A DNA stretch of 24,299 nt from a virus: IMG/VR virus record IMGVR_UViG_3300031857_001338, positions 1 to 24,299 of that record; one strand, written 5' to 3'. This document shows positions 1,866 through 18,412 of the stretch, one piece after another. Position numbers and translations under genes: made by a program. Below the pieces are notes generated by a model. That model saw only the letters and a list, made by a program, of their open reading frames with translations, ran no database searches and was not told the DNA's origin. Positions within the stretch are counted from its first letter, which is position 1; each line of letters begins with the position of its first letter.

Positions 1866-2549
1866 TTAATCCCAGAGACCACGGTAGTATTTGCCAAACA
1901 AACGAAAACCATTATCCATACGGTCATAAACTTTTCTCATACCATCGTAATCACATTGATATGTGTGATTAGGTCCATCTTCAAATATGTAGAGTGTTGG
2001 TTTACCATTTTCATCCCATTCACATGGAACAGATTGTGTGTCAATCTCACCAGAACGATATGCTTCCTCCCATGATTCATCAATAAGATGTTCAAAGGCA
2101 AAAATCATTTCATTTAATACCCATTCCCAACGACGATGTGTGATATCCCAAGAATCTTTTTGATACTGTTCTTGATCTTCAAACTTCAATATGAATTGTG
2201 ATGAACCGTCTTCATAGCCAACTCTGCGTAGTTCTTCTGGTACATCTTCGGCATCAACCATTGGTGAACCGTGTTTGGTATCACGCAGTTGTTTCAACAT
2301 CGGTAGAATGATATCTGCTAATGTGTGATCCATTGACCATGTATCGTAACGGTCAATCTTCACATAGTTTATTTTTGGATGTACAAAGTCAAGAAACTTT
2401 TGCCATGCCCTACTAAAAGGAATCAGAAAATTGGAAAGTTTTTTGATGATAGGCTCATCATAATCAATTTCACGCCAGAAGAAAACTTTCTCCAGTATGG
2501 TATAAGGAGAAAGCCAATGATTACGATAATTTGATTTGTAAATTTTCAT
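1866..2549 (-). CDS. Conserved phage protein of unknown function
   Basis: 227 residues, rich in Trp, Tyr and acidic residues. The central segment (residues about 55-100: FVHPKINYVKIDRYDTWSMD, then HTLADIILPMLKQLRDTKHG) is strongly conserved in homologues that I recall from T4-like phages, where it remains a hypothetical protein. There is no signal peptide, no membrane segment and no motif of a known enzyme. The start at 2549 lacks a clear Shine-Dalgarno. The gene lies immediately downstream of the tmRNA, with a 9-bp hairpin (2567-2598) between them, and could be cotranscribed with it. Confidence 0.75.
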   Translation of the reverse strand: MKIYKSNYRNHWLSPYTILEKVFFWREIDYDEPIIKKLSNFLIPFSRAWQKFLDFVHPKINYVKIDRYDTWSMDHTLADIILPMLKQLRDTKHGSPMVDAEDVPEELRRVGYEDGSSQFILKFEDQEQYQKDSWDITHRRWEWVLNEMIFAFEHLIDESWEEAYRSGEIDTQSVPCEWDENGKPTLYIFEDGPNHTYQCDYDGMRKVYDRMDNGFRLFGKYYRGLWD

Positions 2550-2563
2550 AATGTATAGAATTT

Positions 2564-2885
2564 GGTGTAGAGTGTTTTGGTAATAAGGTACACTCCACTA
2601 AAACCCCATGAGAATTAAGCCGCTAGGCGTTCTTCTCCATAAAATGCGTCATTTGCATTTATAGATTTGCTTGATTTACAGTCATCGCCTACTGTGTTGC
2701 CTTCTCCACTATCTCACCCTGTCGAAACCAAGTCTAGCCCATCAGAAGTGTCCTGCTGTTCACAGGTCGGGAATTCCAATCCTCAGAGTCTTGTTAAACT
2801 CTTACATATCACCCTAAACAACACTTCTGGTGGACTAGGGCGGAGTCGAACCGCCGTCCAGAATGCCTTCACTTTGAAGGGATTA
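2564..2885 (-). ncRNA. ssrA: Circularly permuted (two-piece) tmRNA
   Basis: Read on the minus strand, the acceptor piece comes first. It has a T-arm (GGCGG-TTCGACT-CCGCC, 2855-2839), acceptor strand CTAGTCC (2838-2832), discriminator A and an encoded CCA (2830-2828). After an 87-base intervening segment comes the coding piece, starting GGGCTAG (2740-2734) and followed by GACTTGGTTTCGACAGG. GGGCTAG and CTAGTCC form a 7-bp acceptor stem with G-U at the third pair, the alanine identity element. The intervening segment closes with AGAAGTGT/ACACTTCT, extending the stem as in precursors cut by processing enzymes. The tag reads GCA (2656) to TAA (2615): ANDAFYGEERLAA, with the conserved A four bases before the resume codon. 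Outer limits are approximate: a hairpin at 2567-2598 may close the 3' end, and the acceptor piece probably starts near 2885. Confidence 0.92.
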
Positions 2886-3039
2886 CAACAATTCCTTCCT
2901 GCTGCATTTGTCGATAAAACTCATTTTTCTTTGCTGCATACCAGCCCCACGAACCAAAGAAAGTAGTACCAGGATTTGGTCCTTGCTCTCTCAAGTACAC
3001 ATCAAGTTTTTCGTCGTATTCTTTTTCAGTAATTTGCAT
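2869..3039 (-). CDS. 56-residue phage protein abutting the tmRNA
   Basis: Small protein starting MQITEKEYDEKLDVYLREQG and ending VVIPSK. The middle, PNPGTTFFGSWGWYAAKKNEF, is aromatic and probably structured; I do not recognise the family. The start at 3039 follows the upstream stop with one base between (TGATATG), indicating coupled translation. Its last codons and stop lie in a perfect 6-bp hairpin (CCTTCA-AAG-TGAAGG, 2867-2881) directly upstream of the tmRNA acceptor domain. Coding sequence and RNA gene therefore probably share bases, and the hairpin may help release or protect the RNA end. Confidence 0.65.
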   Translation of the reverse strand: MQITEKEYDEKLDVYLREQGPNPGTTFFGSWGWYAAKKNEFYRQMQQEGIVVIPSK

Positions 3040-3586: not shown

Positions 3587-4252
3587 TCAAGCATATTTAT
3601 CAATCATTTCAATCAACGGTTGCCGATAATCATGTATCTGTCGTTCAAACACCTGTGCAGGACCTTCTTCGGTAGCGATCAATACCACGATGTCATCAAT
3701 CCAAATGCCAGTTCTTTCAGCAAACATTATTGCATATGCTGTACACTGCATAAAATAGTTCAGAATGTAGTCTTCATCTTTTTGCTTGGTGGAAGTCTTA
3801 AAGTCAATGACTGATAACTTACCATTCCATTCAGCAATCAAGTCTACACGACCAGCAATACGATATTTGTCAGAATACAGTGCTTGTTCCTGCGAATAAA
3901 CTTTACCAACGTTATCATCAATAATTGGCTTAATTTTGAAAAATAATTCTTTCAGATCAGGCATCAACATCTGCATTCTGAATTCATTTATTTCATTGTT
4001 GATGTAGTCTTCGCAAATCTTATGCACTTTCGTACCACGATTTGACGCCTTGCGTGATATCTCATTTGCTCGTTCTTCACCTACAGCCTGTCGCCACTCA
4101 TAGAGTGCCTTTTTGCCATAATGCGAAAGCACCGTAGTGATAGACTTATACTGATTGCCTTCTGGCGTAGTATAGAGTCTACCATTATCGGTAGTTTCTG
4201 CTTTTAGATCGAATTGTAGTTGCGGTAAACTTACATGTTCAAATGTTCTCAT
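3587..4252 (-). CDS. PD-(D/E)XK superfamily nuclease (RecB/Cas4-like exonuclease)
   Basis: 221 residues. Motifs in order: RGTKVHKICE with His77, a Glu at 123, GRVDLIA with Asp137, VIDFKTS with Asp150 and Lys152 (the D-x-K core), and QCTAYA with Gln169 and Tyr173 (the QxxxY helix). These are the metal-binding and catalytic positions of the RecB-like branch of the superfamily. The protein probably degrades or resects DNA during phage replication, recombination or host DNA breakdown. Homologues are common as stand-alone exonucleases in T4-like phages of aquatic bacteria. It starts two bases after the oxygenase stop and may be expressed with it. Confidence 0.85.
   Translation of the reverse strand: MRTFEHVSLPQLQFDLKAETTDNGRLYTTPEGNQYKSITTVLSHYGKKALYEWRQAVGEERANEISRKASNRGTKVHKICEDYINNEINEFRMQMLMPDLKELFFKIKPIIDDNVGKVYSQEQALYSDKYRIAGRVDLIAEWNGKLSVIDFKTSTKQKDEDYILNYFMQCTAYAIMFAERTGIWIDDIVVLIATEEGPAQVFERQIHDYRQPLIEMIDKYA
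3594..3601 (-). promoter_or_regulatory. Candidate late promoter for the capsid-targeted protein
   Basis: GATAAATA matches the T4 late -10 consensus TATAAATA at seven of eight positions. It lies 22 bases upstream of the ATG at 3571, leaving room for a short leader with GGAGG. It overlaps the end of the nuclease gene. The spacing is close to that of the perfect TATAAATA box before the fibre operon. It is a short motif in AT-rich DNA, so it may be chance. Confidence 0.4.
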
Positions 4253-7594: not shown

Positions 7595-10021
7595 TTAAGT
7601 CCATTTAAGAATAACGATACCCGAACCACCGGTACCGCCGGATCCTCCACCACCCCCACCACCAGTGCCAAATACACCATTACCTGCTAAACGTGAATCT
7701 GAGGGAGCAACGTAATTATTCCCACCACCACCTTGACCACCAGCAGTTATAAAAACGGGTTGTCCTCCTGGTGCGCCGCCGCTTACGCTTGTGCCACCAC
7801 CACCACCAGCATAGAAAGTGGAAGTTCCTGTGATTGTTGAAGCAAGACCTACTCCGCCATTTCCACCAGTTGTGCCACTTACTGCATTAGCACCGTTAGC
7901 ACCGGCACCTCCACCGCCACCTCCAGCTCCATTCCATGAAAGACCAGCACCAGCGCCGGTACCACCACCAGTTCCTTGTGCTGGCGAAACAGCGGGTACA
8001 TTTCCTAAACCGCCTATTCCTGTGGCATAAGTGTTGTTGTCGCCGCCAGTGCCACCTCCACCCGATCCGCCACTGGCACCATTATAACCAAATGTGCCCG
8101 GCTCATACAAAACTGCCGTGCCACCACATCCACCACCGGCAGACCAAATGGATGATGATACATTAAAAATTCCAGAATTTGTACCATTACTTCTTCCAGC
8201 GCCGCCGGAACCAACAATAATTGTATATGTTCCAGGTGAGACAGAATAAGATGTTGATGTGCGATACCCACCAGCACCACCACCCCCACCGTGTGTTCCA
8301 CCGCCACCACCTCCACCACCGACGACAAGGTATTCTATACTTGTGACGCCTGTTGGAACATTCCATGTTGCTGTGTTAGAGAACACTGCGATTTTGTTTT
8401 GTGATGCGGATATTTTAATGACGGCAAAGCCAGAACCTCCAGCCGAACCACTGACATAGGTTGCGCCGGTGTAACCACCACCGCCACCGCCACCTCCGGT
8501 ATTTGTATTTCCGGTTGACGATACATAACTATTATTATTTCCACCGCCATTACCACCACCACCTTGACCACCATTACCTGCACGTGACTGATTTGCGCCA
8601 CCACCTCCACCACCGGCGTATGCTACATTAGAACTTGTGATTGTAGAAAATACTCCTACACCACCATTTCCGCTTTGTTGCACTCCTGGATGTGGAGGTG
8701 CTGCTCCAACTGAACCGCCAACTGCGCCTGCGCCACCACCGCCACCACAAAAACCAGCAGGACTATTACCTCCATTGTTGCCTTGTCCGGGTGTTCCAGA
8801 ACCAGCACTCCCATTACTCTGTCCAGTTCCACCGCCAGAACCTCCACTAGCACCTTCTTTTTGACCAGGATCATCGCCACCTCCGCCACCACCACCTCTT
8901 GCCGAAAAGAGTATCGCATTTGCTGTATTACCTGCAAAAAGAACTGTATTTGAACCAGAGGCGCCTCTTAGAGCCGGAAATGGAGCCGGTGCGCCTGCAC
9001 CACCACCTCCACCAGCACCAACTCGGATTGTGTAAAGTTGATTCGGTCCTACAGGATAACTAGTGCCTTGTAATAGACCACCAGCACCACCACCGCCACC
9101 CAAAGAGCCGCCACCGCCGCCACCAGCGACTAACAAATAATCAATTGTTGTGACTCCATTAGGTATTACTATTTGACCTGTATTTGCAAAAACATAGACT
9201 CCTTCACCACCCGGAAGTGTTTCTACATAACGAAGAATAATAACACCTGAGCCACCTGCACCAGCACTAGAACCATTACCCTCTGATCCTCCTCCACCAC
9301 CACCTTTGTTGGCCACAGCAGAAGAACTTACATTAGCACCACCATAAACTGGATTGCCACCGCCACCCGATGAACCTCCACCAGGAAAATAACCGGCGCC
9401 GCCACCACCTGCATAACCAGTATTTGAGCCGGACAATGATGAGAACAATCCTATGCCACTGGCAGCCTTTGCTCCCGCACCGCCAGCGCCGCCACCACCA
9501 CCAGCAGTATATGATCCCGGACCCCACGGTGCAGAGGGACCTCCATCATTACCTTGTCCTGGTGTTCCTAATCCACCAGCAACACCTTCAGAACCTCCTC
9601 CACCAGAACCACCACTACTACCTCCAAAAGGCGCTCCAGCGGGAGCATTGTTTCCACCACGGCCGCCGCCAGTTGACCAAAAGGAAGCGGTTGATGTAAA
9701 TAATCCCGAATTAGCGCCATTGGCAGCAGCAGAACCACCGGCACCAACAATAACATTCCATGTTTGTGCTGATACTACGTTGAAGCCTGTGCCGGTTCTA
9801 AAACCTCCAGCACCACCACCGGCGCCAGTGCCTTGACCACCACCACCTCCACCTGCAACGATAAGATAATCTACACTTGTTACACCCGTTGGTGTTATCC
9901 ATGTAGTTGTTTCAGTAAATATTCTTGTTACTGTGTAATTCTCTACAGCAAGTACCGAAGGTCTTCTTACAAGACCGTATGAACGAACTGATGCTGCGCT
10001 AAACGATGCAAAGATTGGCAT
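7595..10021 (-). CDS. Glycine-rich adhesin / tail fibre tip paralogue 1, three modules
   Basis: 808 residues with three modules of about 260. Each opens with a short beta part ending TP(T/N)GVTS(V/I)(D/E)YL, passes into long glycine runs (YLIVAGGGGGG, GYAGGGGG) and ends in a beta strand of GGSGVVILRY type. Modules start near residues 28, 270 and 547. The N-terminus MPIFASFSAASVRSYGLV is shared in form with the two next genes and probably attaches to the fibre. The family is the glycine-rich domain group (Gly_rich_2 type). By analogy with the polyglycine-II tip adhesin gp38 of phage S16, these runs may pack as a polyglycine-II sandwich and bind the host surface. It is the last gene of the late fibre operon. 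Confidence 0.82.
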   Translation of the reverse strand: MPIFASFSAASVRSYGLVRRPSVLAVENYTVTRIFTETTTWITPTGVTSVDYLIVAGGGGGGQGTGAGGGAGGFRTGTGFNVVSAQTWNVIVGAGGSAAANGANSGLFTSTASFWSTGGGRGGNNAPAGAPFGGSSGGSGGGGSEGVAGGLGTPGQGNDGGPSAPWGPGSYTAGGGGGAGGAGAKAASGIGLFSSLSGSNTGYAGGGGAGYFPGGGSSGGGGNPVYGGANVSSSAVANKGGGGGGSEGNGSSAGAGGSGVIILRYVETLPGGEGVYVFANTGQIVIPNGVTTIDYLLVAGGGGGGSLGGGGGAGGLLQGTSYPVGPNQLYTIRVGAGGGGGAGAPAPFPALRGASGSNTVLFAGNTANAILFSARGGGGGGGDDPGQKEGASGGSGGGTGQSNGSAGSGTPGQGNNGGNSPAGFCGGGGGAGAVGGSVGAAPPHPGVQQSGNGGVGVFSTITSSNVAYAGGGGGGANQSRAGNGGQGGGGNGGGNNNSYVSSTGNTNTGGGGGGGGYTGATYVSGSAGGSGFAVIKISASQNKIAVFSNTATWNVPTGVTSIEYLVVGGGGGGGGTHGGGGGAGGYRTSTSYSVSPGTYTIIVGSGGAGRSNGTNSGIFNVSSSIWSAGGGCGGTAVLYEPGTFGYNGASGGSGGGGTGGDNNTYATGIGGLGNVPAVSPAQGTGGGTGAGAGLSWNGAGGGGGGAGANGANAVSGTTGGNGGVGLASTITGTSTFYAGGGGGTSVSGGAPGGQPVFITAGGQGGGGNNYVAPSDSRLAGNGVFGTGGGGGGGSGGTGGSGIVILKWT

Positions 10022-10024
10022 TTT

Positions 10025-12565
10025 TTAATTCCATTTGAGAATAACGACACCAGAGCCGCCGGCGCCGCCGATGGATGATGCACCTCCTCCACCACCACCG
10101 CCACCAGTAAATGAACTAGAAGAAAGACCAATACCACCCACTACACCATTAGCCCCACCACCTTCACCACCAAAACCATTTGTGACCGGTCCATCACCAC
10201 TTCCACCGCCACCACCAGCATATGCTGTATTTGAGCCAGATATAGTTGAATATATTCCTATGCCACCGTTACCAGCTCTATTAAATGGAGTTACTGGCGC
10301 ACCTGTACCATCTTGACCTGCGGCTCCAGCACCACCGCCTCCACCCCCAACAGTGTAGGTAAAGTTATCACTTCGACCTCTGCCTCCATTATTGCCCTGT
10401 CCTGGTGTACCAAAGGCCGCTGGTACAAGGCCATTTAAATTTCCAGTTGAACCTCCACCAGATCCACCATTAGCACCACTTAATGCAGGTGCTATTCCTC
10501 CATTTTGACCACCGCCACCCCCACCGCCACCGATTGATGTAATTGTGTCGAATGTAGAATTACTTCCTGATGGTGCATTTGAATTTTCAACTGAACCTCC
10601 AGACCCACCTGCACCAATAGTCACAATAATAGATGCACCAGGAGTTACTGGATAAGATGGAGAGACTCTAAGACCACCTGCACCTCCCCCCCCACCTCTA
10701 CCTCTACCGCCGCCACCACCACCTGCTACAACAAGATATTCGACACTTGTTACACCCGTTGGCACATTCCATGTTGCTGTGTTAGAAAAGACTGCTATTT
10801 TATTTTGTGATGTAGATACTTTGATGACAGCAAACCCAGACCCTCCGGCGCCTCCACCTCCTGCACCACTAGTGCCGGAAAAACTTGCAGCGCCTCCACC
10901 TCCTCCAGTGTACGTGTTACCAGAAGAAGCAAATCCACCATTGACTGGTGATCCATCACCGCCACCAAACGGTGTGCCTAACCAAGGAGAACCAGCAGAG
11001 TATAATGCGTAACCACCACCACCTTTACCTTCAGTTGTGCCACGATAATCTCCACATCCACCACCACCGCCTGCATATGCTACATTAGAGCCCGTGATCG
11101 AAGAAAATATTCCTATGCCACCATTGCCCGATCTTGCGGGACTTGCTTGTCCGTTTGCTCCTGCGCCACCAGCACCACCACCGCCACCACCATTGCCCAC
11201 ACCAGGAGTAAATGCCTGAGCGCCACCAGCAAACCCTTGTCCCGGTGTACCTAAACCAGCACCACTTCCACCACCTCCTCCTGACCCACCAGAAAAACTA
11301 GGTATATTATACGCAGCACCAGCACCACCACCTATCGCAGTAAGTATCGCAGCATTTGTTGTATTACCAGCAGACAACACAGTATTTACACCATTACTTC
11401 CACTTCCTGAGAAAAGTGGTGCTGTAGGCAATCCACCACTCCCACCAGCACCAATTCTAACTGTATAAAGTTGGCCTGGACCTACTGGATACCCTGTACC
11501 TTGTAACACACCACCAGCACCACCACCACCACTTGAATTATGAGAACCACCCCCACCACCAGCAACTAATAGATAATCAATTGATGTAACACCTTGAGGT
11601 ATTACTAATTGTCCTGTGTTAGCGAAAACATAGACACCATTTCCAGTTGATCGCTCTGTATAACGAAGAATAACTACGCCAGATCCACCCGAACCACCGG
11701 TATATGCTTCTCCAGGATTATTTCCTACTTGTCCTGCGCCACCACCTCCACCACCACTGTTTATTGATCCACTACCGCCTGCTCCATCTCCAGTACGGCC
11801 AAATCCCCCTCCACCATCACCACCAGATGCATTTGCAGGTCCAGCAGATGCGCCACCACCGCCACCGCCAGCATAACCAGTGTTTGATCCAGTAATTGAA
11901 GAAAATGCACCAACACCACCAGCACCACCTCTTGATCCCGGCCCCCCGTTTCCACCAACACCACCGGCTCCACCACCACCGCCACAAGATGTAGAATCTG
12001 TGCTTATGCCGCCACCAGTATGTGAGCCACCTGCATTACCAAAAACACCACCAGGTCCACCAACTCCACCACCACCACCTGCGCCTCCAGCACCAGAACC
12101 CGAAGCATTACCATTACCTCTTCCGGGCATGGCATTAGGCGCACTACCTTGATATGTTCCAGCTCCGGCTCCACCATCAGACCATATTGAAGGAAATGGT
12201 GAAGCAGAAAAAATACCTGAATTTGAACCGTCTGAACTGTAAACGCCTGGAGTTGCTGGAGCAGATGTTCCACCACCACCAACAGTAATTGTGTGAGTAG
12301 CACCTGGTGTTACGCTTAGTCCTGTTCCTGTCCTGAAAGCACCAGCACCACCACCGCCACCGCAGGCAGACCAATAAAATGAAACTCCACCACCTCCGCC
12401 ACCACCCACAACAATATAGTCAACTGATGTTACACCTGATGGTACTACCCATGTATCACTCTGAGTAAATATTCTACTGACTGTGTAATTGATTATGGCG
12501 TCTGGTTTACCAGCAATTCTGAACGATGCTAATATGTTCGAACTTAATGAAGCAAGAATCGGCAT
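10025..12565 (-). CDS. Glycine-rich adhesin / tail fibre tip paralogue 2, three modules
   Basis: 846 residues and the same three-module plan as the gene downstream. Module starts are near residues 27 (YTVSRIFTQSDTWVVPSGVT), 310 (GVYVFANTGQLVIPQGVTSI) and 583 (NKIAVFSNTATWNVPTGVTS). Modules 2 and 3 are closest to modules 2 and 3 of the neighbour, showing that whole genes were duplicated after the modules had multiplied. Variation is concentrated between the glycine runs, where surface loops are expected. It ends three bases before the next ATG. The Shine-Dalgarno signals inside this block are weak, so translation is probably coupled. Receptor binding is inferred. Confidence 0.82.
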   Translation of the reverse strand: MPILASLSSNILASFRIAGKPDAIINYTVSRIFTQSDTWVVPSGVTSVDYIVVGGGGGGGVSFYWSACGGGGGAGAFRTGTGLSVTPGATHTITVGGGGTSAPATPGVYSSDGSNSGIFSASPFPSIWSDGGAGAGTYQGSAPNAMPGRGNGNASGSGAGGAGGGGGVGGPGGVFGNAGGSHTGGGISTDSTSCGGGGGAGGVGGNGGPGSRGGAGGVGAFSSITGSNTGYAGGGGGGASAGPANASGGDGGGGFGRTGDGAGGSGSINSGGGGGGAGQVGNNPGEAYTGGSGGSGVVILRYTERSTGNGVYVFANTGQLVIPQGVTSIDYLLVAGGGGGSHNSSGGGGAGGVLQGTGYPVGPGQLYTVRIGAGGSGGLPTAPLFSGSGSNGVNTVLSAGNTTNAAILTAIGGGAGAAYNIPSFSGGSGGGGGSGAGLGTPGQGFAGGAQAFTPGVGNGGGGGGAGGAGANGQASPARSGNGGIGIFSSITGSNVAYAGGGGGCGDYRGTTEGKGGGGYALYSAGSPWLGTPFGGGDGSPVNGGFASSGNTYTGGGGGAASFSGTSGAGGGGAGGSGFAVIKVSTSQNKIAVFSNTATWNVPTGVTSVEYLVVAGGGGGGRGRGGGGGAGGLRVSPSYPVTPGASIIVTIGAGGSGGSVENSNAPSGSNSTFDTITSIGGGGGGGGQNGGIAPALSGANGGSGGGSTGNLNGLVPAAFGTPGQGNNGGRGRSDNFTYTVGGGGGGAGAAGQDGTGAPVTPFNRAGNGGIGIYSTISGSNTAYAGGGGGSGDGPVTNGFGGEGGGANGVVGGIGLSSSSFTGGGGGGGGASSIGGAGGSGVVILKWN

Positions 12566-12566
12566 C

Positions 12567-14273
12567 TTATCTCACTTTGATATGAACAAAACCTGAGCCA
12601 CCGGAACCACCAGTGACAGGATCACCACCGAGTGGTCCACCACCAATTGACGCACCACCACCTCCACCACCACCGCTATTTGTAATAGCACTTGTACCAG
12701 ATGCACCGTAACCAGTTCCACCGGCACCACCACCAAACTGTGGATGTGCAGGTCCTCCTGTACCAAAAAATGGTGCTGCGCCGCCACCACCACCAGCATA
12801 TCCAGTGTTAGCACCTGTGATTGAAGAAAATAATCCTAGTCCACCAGAACCACCACCAGGTGTAGCATTACCACCTACACTTCCAGCACCACCTCCACCA
12901 CCACCGGCAGGTTGACCACCAGCAGGACCGGAAGAGAATCCGCCAGTTCCACCAGCACTGCCTTGTCCGGGTGTACCAGCAGCACCAACACCATTGGGTC
13001 CGGCACCTCCTCCACCAGAGCCACCGCCACGGGCGTTTGTGCCTGGAGTGACACCTGAACCGCCACCAATTGCTACTAAGTTTGAGAAAAATGGTCCCGT
13101 TGAAGTTATTGATGAGTTTGTGCCATTTGTACCACTGACACCAAGACCTGTTATGCCAGCACCACCAGCACCAACAGTAATTGTATAAACTTGATTTGAT
13201 GTTATCGGATAGTTTGTTCCAGTTATAAAACCTCCACCGCCACCACCACTATCGCCACTACCACCGCTACCACCACCAGCAACAATCAAGTAATCCATAA
13301 CTTGACCTGGCGGCATTATTATTTGTCCACTACCAGTAAATGTAAAGTTATATTCTTTTGTTGTGAAGTAACGAAGAATAACAACACCAGAACCACCTCC
13401 ACCACCAGTAACAGGTTGATTACTTAATGGGCCTCCACCAACTGATGAGCCTCCACCACCCCCACCTCCACGATTTGTGTCAGCACTTGTTCCCGAACTA
13501 CCCCAACCGGTGCCACCAGAGCCTCCACCAAACTGTGGATGTGCTGGACCACCAGCAGAATAAGAGGGTGAACCGCCACCACCACCACCAGCATAACCGG
13601 TGTTTGCACCTGAAAATGAAGAAAATACTCCTAAACCACCTCCACCATTTCGTGTTAAAACTCCAAAAGGTCCTCCTGGAAAAAGTTGTTCTCCAGGTTG
13701 ACCTGGACCACCCCCAACACCTCCAGCACCACCGCCACCACCACCAGAAGTAAATTGACCGGCCGGTCCTTGCCCTGCTGTAGAAGCGCCTCCATTGTTT
13801 CCCTGTCCTGGAGTTCCTAATCCAGCAGGACCACCCGTTGGACCTGCACCTCCACCACCTGAACCACCAGAACGACCTCCAGTACCAGGTGCTACACCCG
13901 ATCCACCACCAATTGCTATTAAGTTTGCAGCCGGCGCAGCGGCAGTTATAGATGAATTCGTTCCGTTTGAACCGTTTAAGCCAAGACCTGTTATGCTGGC
14001 ACCTCCAGCACCAACTGTAACAATATAATTAGCACCGGCAACAACAGGAAAATCTGTGCCAGTAAGAAAACCACCCGCACCACCTCCACTTTCACCAGCA
14101 GCACCACTTCCACCGCCAGCAAGAACTAGATAATCAATTTTATCAACATCAGTGGGAACTGTCCAAGGATTTGAACCGTAAAAAATTCTGAGTACAGGGA
14201 ATCTAGGCGTTACTCTACCAACAAGTTTAAACGATAACAAAAGATTGGAGTTTATTGATGCTAAACTTGGCAT
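12567..14273 (-). CDS. Glycine-rich adhesin / tail fibre tip paralogue 3, two modules
   Basis: 568 residues with two modules, beginning near residue 27 (PVLRIFYGSNPWTVPTDVDK) and residue 307 (EYNFTFTGSGQIIMPPGQV). The two modules are close copies of each other (both contain YAGGGGG, PAHPQFGGG and a GG(P/G)L...PVTGG end), implying recent internal duplication. The N-terminus MPSLASINSNLLLSFKLVG matches the pattern of the other two paralogues. It starts two bases after the fibre gene stop and ends one base before the next ATG, so all four genes behave as one late unit. Function as fibre-tip or adhesin is inferred from composition and position. Confidence 0.82.
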   Translation of the reverse strand: MPSLASINSNLLLSFKLVGRVTPRFPVLRIFYGSNPWTVPTDVDKIDYLVLAGGGSGAAGESGGGAGGFLTGTDFPVVAGANYIVTVGAGGASITGLGLNGSNGTNSSITAAAPAANLIAIGGGSGVAPGTGGRSGGSGGGGAGPTGGPAGLGTPGQGNNGGASTAGQGPAGQFTSGGGGGGAGGVGGGPGQPGEQLFPGGPFGVLTRNGGGGLGVFSSFSGANTGYAGGGGGGSPSYSAGGPAHPQFGGGSGGTGWGSSGTSADTNRGGGGGGGSSVGGGPLSNQPVTGGGGGSGVVILRYFTTKEYNFTFTGSGQIIMPPGQVMDYLIVAGGGSGGSGDSGGGGGGFITGTNYPITSNQVYTITVGAGGAGITGLGVSGTNGTNSSITSTGPFFSNLVAIGGGSGVTPGTNARGGGSGGGGAGPNGVGAAGTPGQGSAGGTGGFSSGPAGGQPAGGGGGGAGSVGGNATPGGGSGGLGLFSSITGANTGYAGGGGGAAPFFGTGGPAHPQFGGGAGGTGYGASGTSAITNSGGGGGGGASIGGGPLGGDPVTGGSGGSGFVHIKVR

Positions 14274-15159: not shown

Positions 15160-15702
15160 CTAAAAGATAATATCTGCAATACCATACTCTACCAACTCTT
15201 CTGCGGTCAGCCAAACATCGGTTGGTCGCAGAAACTTGGATTTCACATCTTTGACCGACAGTTTGGAACGGTCGGAAAGAATCTTTGCCATCTTGTGATG
15301 ATACCGATCACACTCTTTGGCATAAGCCCGCATATCATGATACTTGCCACCCATTTCGTCATTAAATTGATGAATCATGATTGTCGTGTTTTTACCTACT
15401 GCACGATAACCTTTTTCACCAGCAGCAAATATCACAAATGCGGCACTCATCAAATTTCCATACGCTAGTGTGCGAACAGGTAAGCCCAGACCCGACATCA
15501 AGTCTGCCAATCCAATCGCATCACCTAGGTTACCGCCCTCTGAGTTAATGTGTAGCGTCAGTGGCTTTTCAATCTTGTTGAATTTTGCATAAAGTAACCA
15601 GCGTGACGCAGCCTCAATGTTTGTCGGCTCAATGCTGCCAGACAAAAAATGGGCATAGTGTTCAAACTGTACTTCCTGTACTTCGTTCTCTTTGTCGCTC
15701 AT
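15160..15702 (-). CDS. clpP: ClpP-like serine protease
   Basis: 180 residues, the usual core length of ClpP without a long propeptide. The catalytic triad is visible: Ser86 in YGNLMSAAFVIFAAG, His111 in TIMIHQF, and Asp162 in RPTDVWLTAEELVEYGIAD. The Ser-His spacing of 25 equals that of bacterial ClpP. LTLHINSEGGNLGDAIGLAD is the substrate-strand region. The protein should form heptameric rings and depend on a ClpX or ClpA ATPase, which would have to be the host's since none is in the window. T4-like phages use gp21 as prohead protease, so here ClpP more likely alters host or phage protein turnover. The tmRNA tag in this window ends in LAA, the ClpX signal. Overlaps galE by 41 bases. Confidence 0.9.
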   Translation of the reverse strand: MSDKENEVQEVQFEHYAHFLSGSIEPTNIEAASRWLLYAKFNKIEKPLTLHINSEGGNLGDAIGLADLMSGLGLPVRTLAYGNLMSAAFVIFAAGEKGYRAVGKNTTIMIHQFNDEMGGKYHDMRAYAKECDRYHHKMAKILSDRSKLSVKDVKSKFLRPTDVWLTAEELVEYGIADIIF

Positions 15703-16636
15703 ACCAATTATACGCCGTTCTCAAAATGGATTTTAAATCGTGCTTGGGTTTGAAATTAAGATGTTCTTTGGCGGCATCAGAGTTGGCGACTAACCTTCGT
15801 GGGTCACCTTCTCTTCGTTTACCGATTTTGTATTGAATTGGAACGTTTAGTTCCTGTTTAGCAGCATCAATCACTTGTAGTACAGTATATCCTTTACCAG
15901 TGCCTAGATTGAAAAGACTAGGTTGATTGTTTCCTTTTTTCTGTAAATATTCGTCAGCCAGTAGATGCGCCTCTGCAACATCAGACACATGAACATAATC
16001 ACGAATGCAAGTACCATCTACTGTTTGATAATCATTTCCGTATACGATGAACTCTTCGTTATTTAGACTTTTGAACATCAGCGGAATCAAATGTGTTTCT
16101 GGATGATGATCTTCACCCATCTCACCATCAGGATCAGCACCCGCTAAATTGAAGAAACGGAAAATAATAGAATTCACTTTTGCATCACGAATCGCACACT
16201 CAGCCGCATACTTGCTGTTAGCATACGGATTGTTGTTATCTATTTCTGATTTCTCAGAGAGGCTGGTAAACTGAGAACGATAAACGCCGGCAGTAGAAGA
16301 ATAAACAATATTACTAACATCAAATTTTCTCATTGTGTTAAGTAGGTTGCATGTGCCACCCACATTGATGTCCCAAAACTCTTCGGGGTGTAAAACTGAC
16401 TCACCAACTTCAATACGACCTGCCAAATGAAATACAATATGTGGTGGCCAGTTTGTAAACACTCTTGATAGGTCTTGATATGACCGAGTATCACCAGGAT
16501 GATAGACATCCCAGTACAAATCATTCTGTGGTGTTTTTATATCAAAACAAACTGTGTAGTAACCTGCTTTTTTAAGTGCCTTGCCTAAGTGTGAGCCAAG
16601 ATAACCTGACCCACCAGTTACCAACGCTGTTCTCAT
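15662..16636 (-). CDS. galE: UDP-glucose 4-epimerase-like NAD-dependent epimerase
   Basis: 324 residues, extended short-chain dehydrogenase/reductase family. The NAD site is VTGGSGYLGSHL (Gly8, Gly11, Gly14); the catalytic Ser/Thr lie in VYSSTAGVY (113-119) and the Tyr-Lys pair in NPYANSKYAAE (Tyr138, Lys142). FFNLAGADPDGEMGEDH and GTCIRDYVHVSDVAEAH are GalE signatures, making UDP-glucose/UDP-galactose or a GlcNAc/GalNAc pair the likely substrates. It follows the RmlC-like gene by an ATGA overlap and extends 41 bases into clpP. With its neighbours it suggests synthesis of a nucleotide sugar for a phage-directed glycan. Confidence 0.88.
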   Translation of the reverse strand: MRTALVTGGSGYLGSHLGKALKKAGYYTVCFDIKTPQNDLYWDVYHPGDTRSYQDLSRVFTNWPPHIVFHLAGRIEVGESVLHPEEFWDINVGGTCNLLNTMRKFDVSNIVYSSTAGVYRSQFTSLSEKSEIDNNNPYANSKYAAECAIRDAKVNSIIFRFFNLAGADPDGEMGEDHHPETHLIPLMFKSLNNEEFIVYGNDYQTVDGTCIRDYVHVSDVAEAHLLADEYLQKKGNNQPSLFNLGTGKGYTVLQVIDAAKQELNVPIQYKIGKRREGDPRRLVANSDAAKEHLNFKPKHDLKSILRTAYNWYERQRERSTGSTV

Positions 16637-17124
16637 CTATCTCTTTCCGATAAAATAGGATTTTTAATTGGCCAGTAAATATTAAATCTGTCGTCGTTCC
16701 ACTTCACGGTGTATTGTGAAGCACGGTCATAGTATTGATCAAGTTTGTAGTTGAACACACAATGATCAGACATCACCAAATGTGCATTTCCATGATTTGG
16801 TGGTACTAATACTTGATAGCCATTTCTATCAGACAATGTAAACTCTTGCCACTGACCATACTGATCAGAATCTTCATCAAGGTTTAGAACAACAAAATAA
16901 ATTGTACCATGTAAACAAGAAATCAATTTTGTTGTACGGTCATCACCATGAATGCCACGTAAGGTATGACGGCGTGATGTAGATACACTATCAAGAATAA
17001 AATTTACACCTAACTGTGCGTAATTATCTTTGTGCCATGTTTCAATGTTCGTACCACGATAATCTTCATGCACAGTTGGCTTGATGAGTTTTACACCTTT
17101 GAGATTCGTATCTTCAACTATCAT
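16633..17124 (-). CDS. RmlC-like sugar 3,5-epimerase (cupin)
   Basis: 163 residues from the ATG at 17124, which overlaps the glycosyltransferase stop as TGATG. RmlC-type features: an N-terminal GVKLIKPTVHEDYRG, RHTLRGIHGDD with the putative base His59, KLISCLHGTIYFVVLNLD, VLVPPNHGNAHLVMSD and NYKLDQYYD with Tyr126. These match dTDP-4-dehydrorhamnose 3,5-epimerase and related nucleotide-sugar epimerases. The exact sugar is unknown: no RmlA, RmlB or RmlD lies in the window, so it may act on a host-made 4-keto sugar. Confidence 0.82.
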   Translation of the reverse strand: MIVEDTNLKGVKLIKPTVHEDYRGTNIETWHKDNYAQLGVNFILDSVSTSRRHTLRGIHGDDRTTKLISCLHGTIYFVVLNLDEDSDQYGQWQEFTLSDRNGYQVLVPPNHGNAHLVMSDHCVFNYKLDQYYDRASQYTVKWNDDRFNIYWPIKNPILSERDR

Positions 17125-17879
17125 CAGCCACTCACAATTGTTATACCTGGTCCTACAATATATTCTTCTTTGAATGTTTTCTTCCAAGGAAAGCCATTCG
17201 GATAATTCTTTTCGTTTTCAGCGTTGCCCTTTTCAAAGAACTCAGCATTGACAGAATTTGGATTGCCGTCTAAACGATAGCACAATGAATATTCTCTTGA
17301 GCATGAATAGTTTGGAAAGTATTGTTTGAGTGCATTGAAGAATTGTCTATCAGCACCCCACTGACCATACCACGCTGCACCAAGTTTTCGTGCAATATCA
17401 ATCTTCACCATGTACGATGAAGTGTCGATATGAAATGCATCTTTGTTGAAATAGATTGGCCATTGACCCAGTGATTCGCAATTATCTTCAGCAACAAAAT
17501 TACCTTCTTTATCAACTATCTTTCTGAGTGAGTATGCCCAATCAACACCCTTTTTGATTCTCTCAACAAGTTTCTCAACATGATTAGGCTCAAACCAATT
17601 GTCTTCGTCAAGATAACATATAACATCAGCATTGACAAGATAACCACATGCTGCATATACACGATGACCGTACCAACCTTTGCCGATATTTTCTTGCAAA
17701 CGGATTGTTTTGACTTTTGATGCGCCTTGGAGTTGATTCCAGATTTTGTCGCCATGCTCTTCCTCACCATCAAGAAAAACATAATGTGTCACATCGTCGT
17801 ATGTTTGTGCTTCGACAGATTCAACACACTGTCTAAGTGTTTTTGCTCCGATTGTTGGTGTTACGACTGCTACTTTCAT
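17124..17879 (-). CDS. Family 2 glycosyltransferase
   Basis: 251 residues. The GT-A fold is shown by the start MKVAVVTPTIGAKTLRQCVE, the VFLDGEEEHGD strand, and the nucleotide/metal motif ICYLDEDNWFEPNH (Asp91-Asp93). No membrane segment, so a cytosolic enzyme. Substrate unknown. It sits between a cytidylyltransferase and two epimerases, suggesting one pathway that makes and transfers a sugar, either to the phage particle, to phage DNA or to host surface glycans. The first 47 bases overlap the 48-residue gene upstream in another frame. AAAGGTGAAA gives its Shine-Dalgarno. Confidence 0.85.
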   Translation of the reverse strand: MKVAVVTPTIGAKTLRQCVESVEAQTYDDVTHYVFLDGEEEHGDKIWNQLQGASKVKTIRLQENIGKGWYGHRVYAACGYLVNADVICYLDEDNWFEPNHVEKLVERIKKGVDWAYSLRKIVDKEGNFVAEDNCESLGQWPIYFNKDAFHIDTSSYMVKIDIARKLGAAWYGQWGADRQFFNALKQYFPNYSCSREYSLCYRLDGNPNSVNAEFFEKGNAENEKNYPNGFPWKKTFKEEYIVGPGITIVSG

Positions 17880-17979
17880 TTTTCACCTTTTTACCAAAAA
17901 TTTTATCCCAGTTATCGTTAAATTTTTCACGTGGTATTTCAATTGGTCTAGGTTTAGAACCTTTTCCACCGTCACTCAT
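17833..17979 (-). CDS. Tiny conserved phage protein (MSDGGKGS type)
   Basis: 48 residues: MSDGGKGSKPRPIEIPREKF, then NDNWDKIFGKK and a polar tail. The pattern M(S/x)(D/G)GKGSxxRP...(F/Y)xxNWDxIF(G/R)K is a very common tiny protein across unrelated phages, function unknown. Start at 17979 has GAGGAG in optimal position and overlaps the cytidylyltransferase end by eight bases. The last 47 bases overlap the glycosyltransferase start. Both the family pattern and the coupling support a real gene despite its size. Confidence 0.75.
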   Translation of the reverse strand: MSDGGKGSKPRPIEIPREKFNDNWDKIFGKKVKNESSSRNTNNRSKNT

Positions 17980-18412
17980 TCCAACTCCTCAATAACCAAG
18001 ATGAAGAATTCTTTTTGTTGCTGCCACCGACACCGTATACAAAGTTGATGCCAGGAACTTCTGCTTCTGCATTATTTGTTTCATTACGATCACCACCATT
18101 TGCAAACCAGATTGAATAGTTTGAAAGTGTAGGTAAAACATTACAATAGTGATCTCTCACACGTTCAAGCAAATCACATGCAGTGCCATCAGAATCATCA
18201 AACTCCCACACTTCATCAACCCAACGAATTGATTCGAGTATGGCTTTGCGTTCACGAATATCCATGAATGGCTTACCCTTTTTACGTGTGAGCCACGCAT
18301 CAGAGTTTACACCCACGATAAGTTTGTCACCTAAACCAGATGCTTCACGCAATAAGGCAAGATGACCCGAATGAATGGGATCAAAGCCACCAGATACCAC
18401 AACAATTTTCAT
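17972..18412 (-). CDS. Cytidylyltransferase-like nucleotidyltransferase
   Basis: 146 residues. GGFDPIHSGHLALLREA carries the HxGH nucleotide-binding motif (His14-His17), VGVNSDAWLTRKKGKPFM and the RER (53-55) are typical of the glycerol-3-phosphate cytidylyltransferase / HldE adenylyltransferase group, and SSSWLLRSW at the C-terminus corresponds to the ISTT-type nucleotide motif. It would activate a phosphorylated sugar or polyol as a CDP or ADP derivative. It starts in an ATGA overlap with the DUF6433-like gene and leads the sugar cluster. Its substrate cannot be read from sequence. Confidence 0.85.
   Translation of the reverse strand: MKIVVVSGGFDPIHSGHLALLREASGLGDKLIVGVNSDAWLTRKKGKPFMDIRERKAILESIRWVDEVWEFDDSDGTACDLLERVRDHYCNVLPTLSNYSIWFANGGDRNETNNAEAEVPGINFVYGVGGSNKKNSSSWLLRSWNE

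Follow-up and report, generated by a model that had tools for sequence, protein, structure and literature searches.

Two-piece, circularly permuted tmRNAs are already known in the phage group considered here, Melnitz being an example. The available text of a survey of phage tmRNAs counts 53 two-piece genes among 133 unique structures, 50 of these from marine or aquatic samples (PMC9004378), and the accessible part of a tmRNA database description gives 79 phage sequences (PMC11915505). Phage tmRNAs are thus known, yet their tags are hardly discussed in the literature that we found. Melnitz, a T4-like phage of Methylophilales (MZ577097), carries, as described in the available sections of its report (PMC9004378), a permuted tmRNA just 3′ of a PD-(D/E)XK exonuclease gene, as does the locus studied here; in our reading of its genome the tmRNA follows the exonuclease by about 490 bases. 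However, the Melnitz tmRNA scores 106.7 bits for RF01849 and so belongs to the alphaproteobacterial type; its tag is ANDNYVPVDYALAA, and a glutamine riboswitch follows it.

The fate of tagged proteins has been described in E. coli, where, according to the available text, AANDENY of the tag binds the adaptor SspB and ALAA binds ClpX (PMC8512704). In the same text, the engineered tag AANDENYSENYALAA, with a four-residue spacer, lowered KM from 3.38 to 1.55 µM without SspB, showed no gain from the spacer with SspB (0.48 versus 0.47) and shortened removal from 60 to about 15 minutes (PMC8512704). A comparable insertion is present in DAS+4 tags, as the accessible portion of a second paper indicates (PMC8138137). 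The same tag-adaptor-ClpXP branch of the host is touched by the T4-like Pseudomonas phage pf16, which carries SspB and, in the part of its description available, is reported without a tmRNA (PMC5587285), whereas the phages described below carry a tmRNA and SspB was found in none of the 24 phage records searched for it.

Here we analyse a virus fragment of 24,299 bases, an entire IMG/VR record (hereafter the window). ARAGORN placed a permuted tmRNA on its minus strand at 2920-2524, with the tag ANDAFYGEERLAA. Covariance models of Rfam scored the gene at 142.5 bits for RF04321 (gathering cut-off 47) and 131.1 bits for RF01850 (gathering cut-off 84); chance is excluded as the source of the match because both scores far exceed the cut-offs. 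The order is permuted: on the minus strand, the acceptor half (ACCA end at 2828) precedes the coding half (from 2740), which contains the tag at 2656-2615. The acceptor stem GGGCTAG/CTAGTCC forms seven of seven pairs, including G3:U70, which we take to be the alanine identity element of the tmRNA acceptor stem. The Rfam score, the acceptor-before-coding order, the stem with its G3:U70 pair and CCA end, and an open frame from resume codon to stop all identify a two-piece tmRNA. Hence, this bacterial virus carries a genuine two-piece tmRNA of the betaproteobacterial type. A sequence-only reading had placed a tmRNA tag ending in LAA at 2615-2656. ARAGORN and Rfam bear it out, the coordinates spanning exactly 13 codons plus TAA inside a real phage tmRNA, with the LAA end seen in the sequence; the tmRNA itself was correctly called, but the permutation had gone unrecognised. 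Coordinates are collected in Table 1.

Table 1 Features of the tmRNA locus and the clpP gene of the window
Feature	Position	Strand	Remarks
Downstream flanking gene, phrog_11543	1866..2549	-	synteny marker; function unknown
Permuted (two-piece) tmRNA gene	2563..2938	-	RF01850 limits; ARAGORN limits 2524-2920
Coding piece	2563..2740	-	starts GGGCTAG, acceptor strand 2740-2734
3′ hairpin GGAGTGT...ACACTC	2570..2596	-	3′ of tag
Tag reading frame ANDAFYGEERLAA + TAA	2615..2656	-	13 codons; resume codon GCA
87-nt intervening segment	2741..2827	-	closed by GAAGTGT/ACACTTC; fold -22.4 kcal/mol
Acceptor piece (tRNA-like 3′ half)	2828..2891	-	5′ end 2891 approximate
Acceptor strand CTAGTCC	2838-2832	-	then encoded ACCA ending 2828
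T-arm of acceptor piece	2855-2839	-	
Small ORF, 56 aa, ...GIVVIPSK	2869..3039	-	stop codon inside tmRNA acceptor piece; read from sequence
S-adenosylmethionine lyase-like gene, PF23780	3041..3571	-	upstream of tmRNA
PD-(D/E)XK exonuclease, phrog_298	3587..4252	-	synteny marker; basis of neighbour-gene tree
ClpP-like protease	15160..15702	-	triad S86/H111/D162

As with the small ORF of the window, the upstream ORFs of some relatives extend into the start of the tmRNA, and several relatives have a diverged version (about 33% identical) of the S-adenosylmethionine (SAM) lyase-like gene (PF23780) in its place. Elsewhere in the window, three successive large glycine-rich tail-fibre-like genes (PF21722, phrog_2295; 7595-14273) have a raised G+C content, up to 0.51 as compared to 0.38-0.40 at the window ends, and sugar-nucleotide and glycosyltransferase genes (epimerases, GtrB-like, adenylyltransferase; 15662-18412) lie beside clpP. 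A search by DNA for the phage records nearest to the window found none near, and a DNA search with the tmRNA region returned short weak matches only. By exonuclease, the nearest isolates are Phage C48C1 and Melnitz, each about 48% identical.

Relatives (L001-L146 and L253-L336) were drawn from IMG/VR through scans with ClpP, with the exonuclease and with two sequence patterns, one for the tag and one for the tmRNA core. After identical sequences and one edge-cut sequence were dropped, 89 distinct permuted phage tmRNAs were left. The acceptor stem was parsed in 79 of these (10 unparsed), the 3′ strand being chosen for best pairing, a choice that favours pairing; with this procedure all seven pairs formed in 71 of the 79, pair 3 was G-U in 75, and 15 distinct stems were found. 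Some loci depart from the common form. Three (L253, L265 and L333) have very long tags in the usual resume context, of 31 residues (ANANTFDFSAMSFTGNTVRGAANESRFALAA) and 26 residues, which could be real or reflect an early start call; the C-terminal end of the 31-residue tag is a complete ordinary tag. In L017 the resume codon is GTA rather than GCA and the tag is VNDAFYGEERLAA, while in L087 and L114 the tag stop codon is TGA. The tmRNA of L167 was considered as degenerate because of its GGGGCAGT T-loop; this was dropped, since the Melnitz tmRNA has the same loop. Two distant ClpP-bearing phages (G035 and G036) have a one-piece tmRNA (RF00023, 119.3 and 90.7 bits).

At the same locus, 3′ of the same exonuclease, these phages carry either a 13-residue tag, AND[ASN][FY]YGE[ED]RLAA, or a 10-residue host-like tag. 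In total, 32 different tag calls were made among the 89 distinct tmRNAs, with 10 residues in 48 and 13 residues in 33. On a tree of the exonuclease (38 rows), 11 changes are required to account for the tag class, and well-supported branches force at least 7 of these. Shuffled labels averaged 12.6-12.8 changes, and in 113 and 106 of 500 shuffles the number did not exceed the observed one, so that joint inheritance of the class and the neighbouring gene is not detectable. The type of SAM lyase served as a control trait on this tree (37 rows): it needed 6 changes versus 9.0 when shuffled, and the tag 11 versus 12.1.

When 28 parsed tmRNAs were compared, the 195 pairs that differ in tag class had a mean identity of 0.87 in the acceptor piece and 0.90 in the 5′ tRNA-like part, and of 0.60 in the tag; the corresponding means for same-tag pairs (47 pairs) are 0.91, 0.93 and 0.95. 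The immediate flanks of the tag vary along with it. In addition, two chimeric tags, ANDNYYGEDRLAA and ANDSYYGEDRLAA (in L135 and L132), join the start of an ANDNYYAMAA allele to the end of a GEDRLAA allele, and another phage contig (L094) holds near-identical tag DNA within a very different permuted tmRNA (89.9 bits). All close relatives being metagenome contigs, some of the switches could be assembly chimeras; against this, one tmRNA (L099) is identical in three contigs and another (L086) in two, from different metagenomes. Overall, close relatives among these phages exchange the tag as a cassette and retain the tRNA-like domain.

A homing endonuclease as the driver of this swapping is unsupported within the close clade. 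There, the large additional genes ahead of the tmRNA encode tryptophan halogenases, inserted between the SAM-lyase-like gene and the tmRNA (L008:12437-13609, L009:14840-15976, L013:8358-9515). A homing endonuclease (phrog_314; L094:1471-2223) does adjoin a tmRNA in L094, a divergent, unrelated permuted gene with the same 13-residue tag.

The tags could be copies of those of the hosts, the 13-residue tag being that of an unsequenced host, phages tracking host tags, and switching among phages reflecting host switching. The two-piece tmRNAs of betaproteobacteria have the same architecture and family (RF01850) as that of the window. We read tags from eight beta-like permuted host tmRNAs only: ANDERFALAA (twice), ANDEQFAIAA, ANDEHFAIAA, ANDENFALAA, ANDESYALAA, ANDENFAMAA and ANDDNFEVALAA. 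Burkholderiales genomes encode exactly two of the tags seen in phages, the short ANDERFALAA and ANDESYALAA, and several short phage tags therefore look host-like, whereas the 13-residue class does not: no YGE[ED]RLAA tag occurs among these eight tmRNAs, a small host sample. The host tag searches scored few candidates per genome, which makes absences there uninformative.

A wider scan, with the pattern ANDx[FY]YGE[ED], covered 84,980 species of bacteria and archaea and found 17 stretches. One lies in a tmRNA, of Pseudomonas, with a different tag (ANDKYYGEESIAA, ARAGORN), and the other 16 contain no tmRNA by Rfam; the scan thus revealed no tmRNA with the 13-residue phage tag. The sequence-only reading had noted that the tag differs from host-type tags, which the scan upholds. 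A protein search of phages with the doubled tag gave no match, which is weakly informative for a query so short. Host copying gains some ground from the 13-residue YGE-type tags that some bacteria carry (ANDKYYGEESIAA, ANDEFYGEAVAAA) and from the exchange between host lineages that the available text proposes for the group of Melnitz (PMC9004378). However, in addition to the outcome of the species scan, switching is frequent among phages whose neighbouring genes share at least about 90% identity, and would require very frequent change of host. We consider this origin unlikely.

The first reading had instead tentatively matched the tag to the ClpP of the phage, proposing that the tag is tuned to a protease containing that ClpP and that the virus controls both. 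The window ClpP is a genuine ClpP peptidase by family score, catalytic triad and fold: PF00574 matches at 3.9e-30, the structural model has a pLDDT of 90.1 and a TM score of 0.86-0.88 to solved ClpPs, and Ser86, His111 and Asp162, which that reading had described as an intact triad, are invariant in 49 aligned phage ClpPs. On the other hand, it is 28% identical to E. coli ClpP, with a shorter N-terminal region and no C-terminal tail, and its docking residues are changed. At the pocket for the ClpX/ClpA IGF loop, the aligned residues are T49, H51, L79, Y81, A101, G103 and F180, in place of what we take to be the E. coli docking residues Y60, Y62, I90, M92, F112, L114 and L189; the replacement of several of them may speak against a tuned pair. 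A role as head-maturation (prohead) protease, the best PHROG name of this ClpP, was rejected, since 7 of the 28 records searched, among them those of the large close relatives G003, G011 and G016, contain a separate T4 gp21-type protease (PF03420).

The tmRNA and clpP lie about 8-13 kb apart and occur together in 19 of 22 close records; the other three, of 4.9, 14.5 and 32 kb, may stop short of the site. Ten ClpP records in the same survey are 100 kb or longer, and seven of them hold a permuted tmRNA that scores above the cut-off. Among the 80 of 97 tmRNA-core stretches that were listed, seven belong to records of this size, five of these with ClpP. The expected co-occurrence of ssrA and clpP in relatives is therefore found, but it stems from shared descent of the region, as regional synteny, and says little on pairing. 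The tag class does not cluster on a ClpP tree built from 19 of the 29 tmRNA-linked ClpPs, the remainder being too distant: it needs 5 changes versus a mean of 6.5 for shuffled labels. The window and L013 ClpPs are sisters (98/98), and the L013 tag, ANDERYALAA, is of another class. Conversely, searches of some tmRNA-bearing phages found no ClpP. No ClpP was found by profile search in the Melnitz genome, the same profile finding the window ClpP at 1.2e-76, nor was there a ClpP match in G1008 (143 kb), which has the 13-residue tag ANDAYFGDERLAA, or in the tmRNA-bearing G1007 (192 kb).

Neither SmpB nor, among the 20 ORFs scanned, ClpX is in the window, as the first reading had stated, and SmpB was found in none of 28 phage records. 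ClpX is present in 4 of the 28 records only, all distant (G039, G040, G044, G045) and also with a second, host-like ClpP; ClpX and SspB are in none of the close-clade records searched. These four distant phages (G039, G044 and G045, in L180-L184, and G040) are 154-210 kb in size, their host-like ClpP scores 255-266 bits, and three of the four encode a permuted tmRNA. With near-identical ClpPs going with different tags, the tag is independent of the phage ClpP, and we reject the matched pair as very improbable despite the shared neighbourhood and the invariant triad.

The peptide itself is constrained. The 13-residue class comprises 31 distinct tmRNAs with 24 distinct tag DNAs, which vary at 2, 3 and 11 of the 13 first, second and third codon positions. 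This bias to third positions (11/13 versus 5/26; Fisher p 1.4e-4) is approximate owing to shared ancestry. Of all 89 tmRNAs, 86 have Y or F at encoded position 6; the tag starts with AND in 80, ends in LAA in 78 and ends in AA in 89. The 13-residue peptide is under purifying selection, although part of the constraint could act on RNA structure, the codons CGC and CTA hardly varying. That ribosome release alone matters, any peptide serving and the tag drifting and recombining freely, would fit the many alleles and the lack of clustering of tag class on the neighbour-gene tree, but it is very improbable in the face of the third-position bias, the constant AA end, the prevalent LAA end and the near-constant aromatic position 6.

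Overall, the locus probably makes a functional phage two-piece tmRNA in which the tag is a cassette with interchangeable alleles, the 13-residue allele serving as a degron for host ClpXP. No convincing promoter or terminator of its own was found for the window tmRNA, from which we infer cotranscription with its neighbours. The transcript would then be cut into acceptor and coding pieces, with removal of the 87-nt intervening segment. The tmRNA would be charged with alanine by the host synthetase through G3:U70 and, together with host SmpB, would rescue ribosomes stalled during infection. Recombination among related phages would replace the tag and its immediate flanks and leave the tRNA-like domain in place.

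The full tag, AANDAFYGEERLAA, shows the SspB-site pattern AANDxx[YF] ((A)ANDAFY), then a spacer, then LAA, the presumed ClpX signal. Its three extra residues lengthen the spacer between the SspB site and LAA. In the SspB site, the longer spacer and the ClpX signal, the phage tag resembles the engineered AANDENYSENYALAA and DAS+4 degrons as the available texts describe them (PMC8512704, PMC8138137), but it is natural, known from sequence alone, and has three rather than four extra residues and other spacer letters. By this analogy, the 13-residue tag may be a natural relative of the engineered spacer-tag design. A bolder version, which we offer only tentatively and think somewhat doubtful, is that these phages have in common a pool of tmRNA degron cassettes that can replace one another, of which the 13-residue one would be an 'improved' virus-made degron: its longer spacer would allow fast uptake by host ClpXP even with too little SspB, so that the phage would clear stalled products better than is possible with the host tag, and swapping would track changing hosts, adaptors or competing phages.

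What appears new is the tag, that is, the exchange of tag classes and the 13-residue allele; searches of the open-licence literature found neither these tags nor an exchange of tags among phage tmRNAs described. The tag is the fast-moving part of the gene: it differs even between near-identical phages, and selection acts on the peptide. This raises a testable question, namely how a phage benefits from encoding a degradation tag of its own. The 13-residue tag provides a natural test of the spacer effect known from engineered degrons and might serve as a strong laboratory degron.
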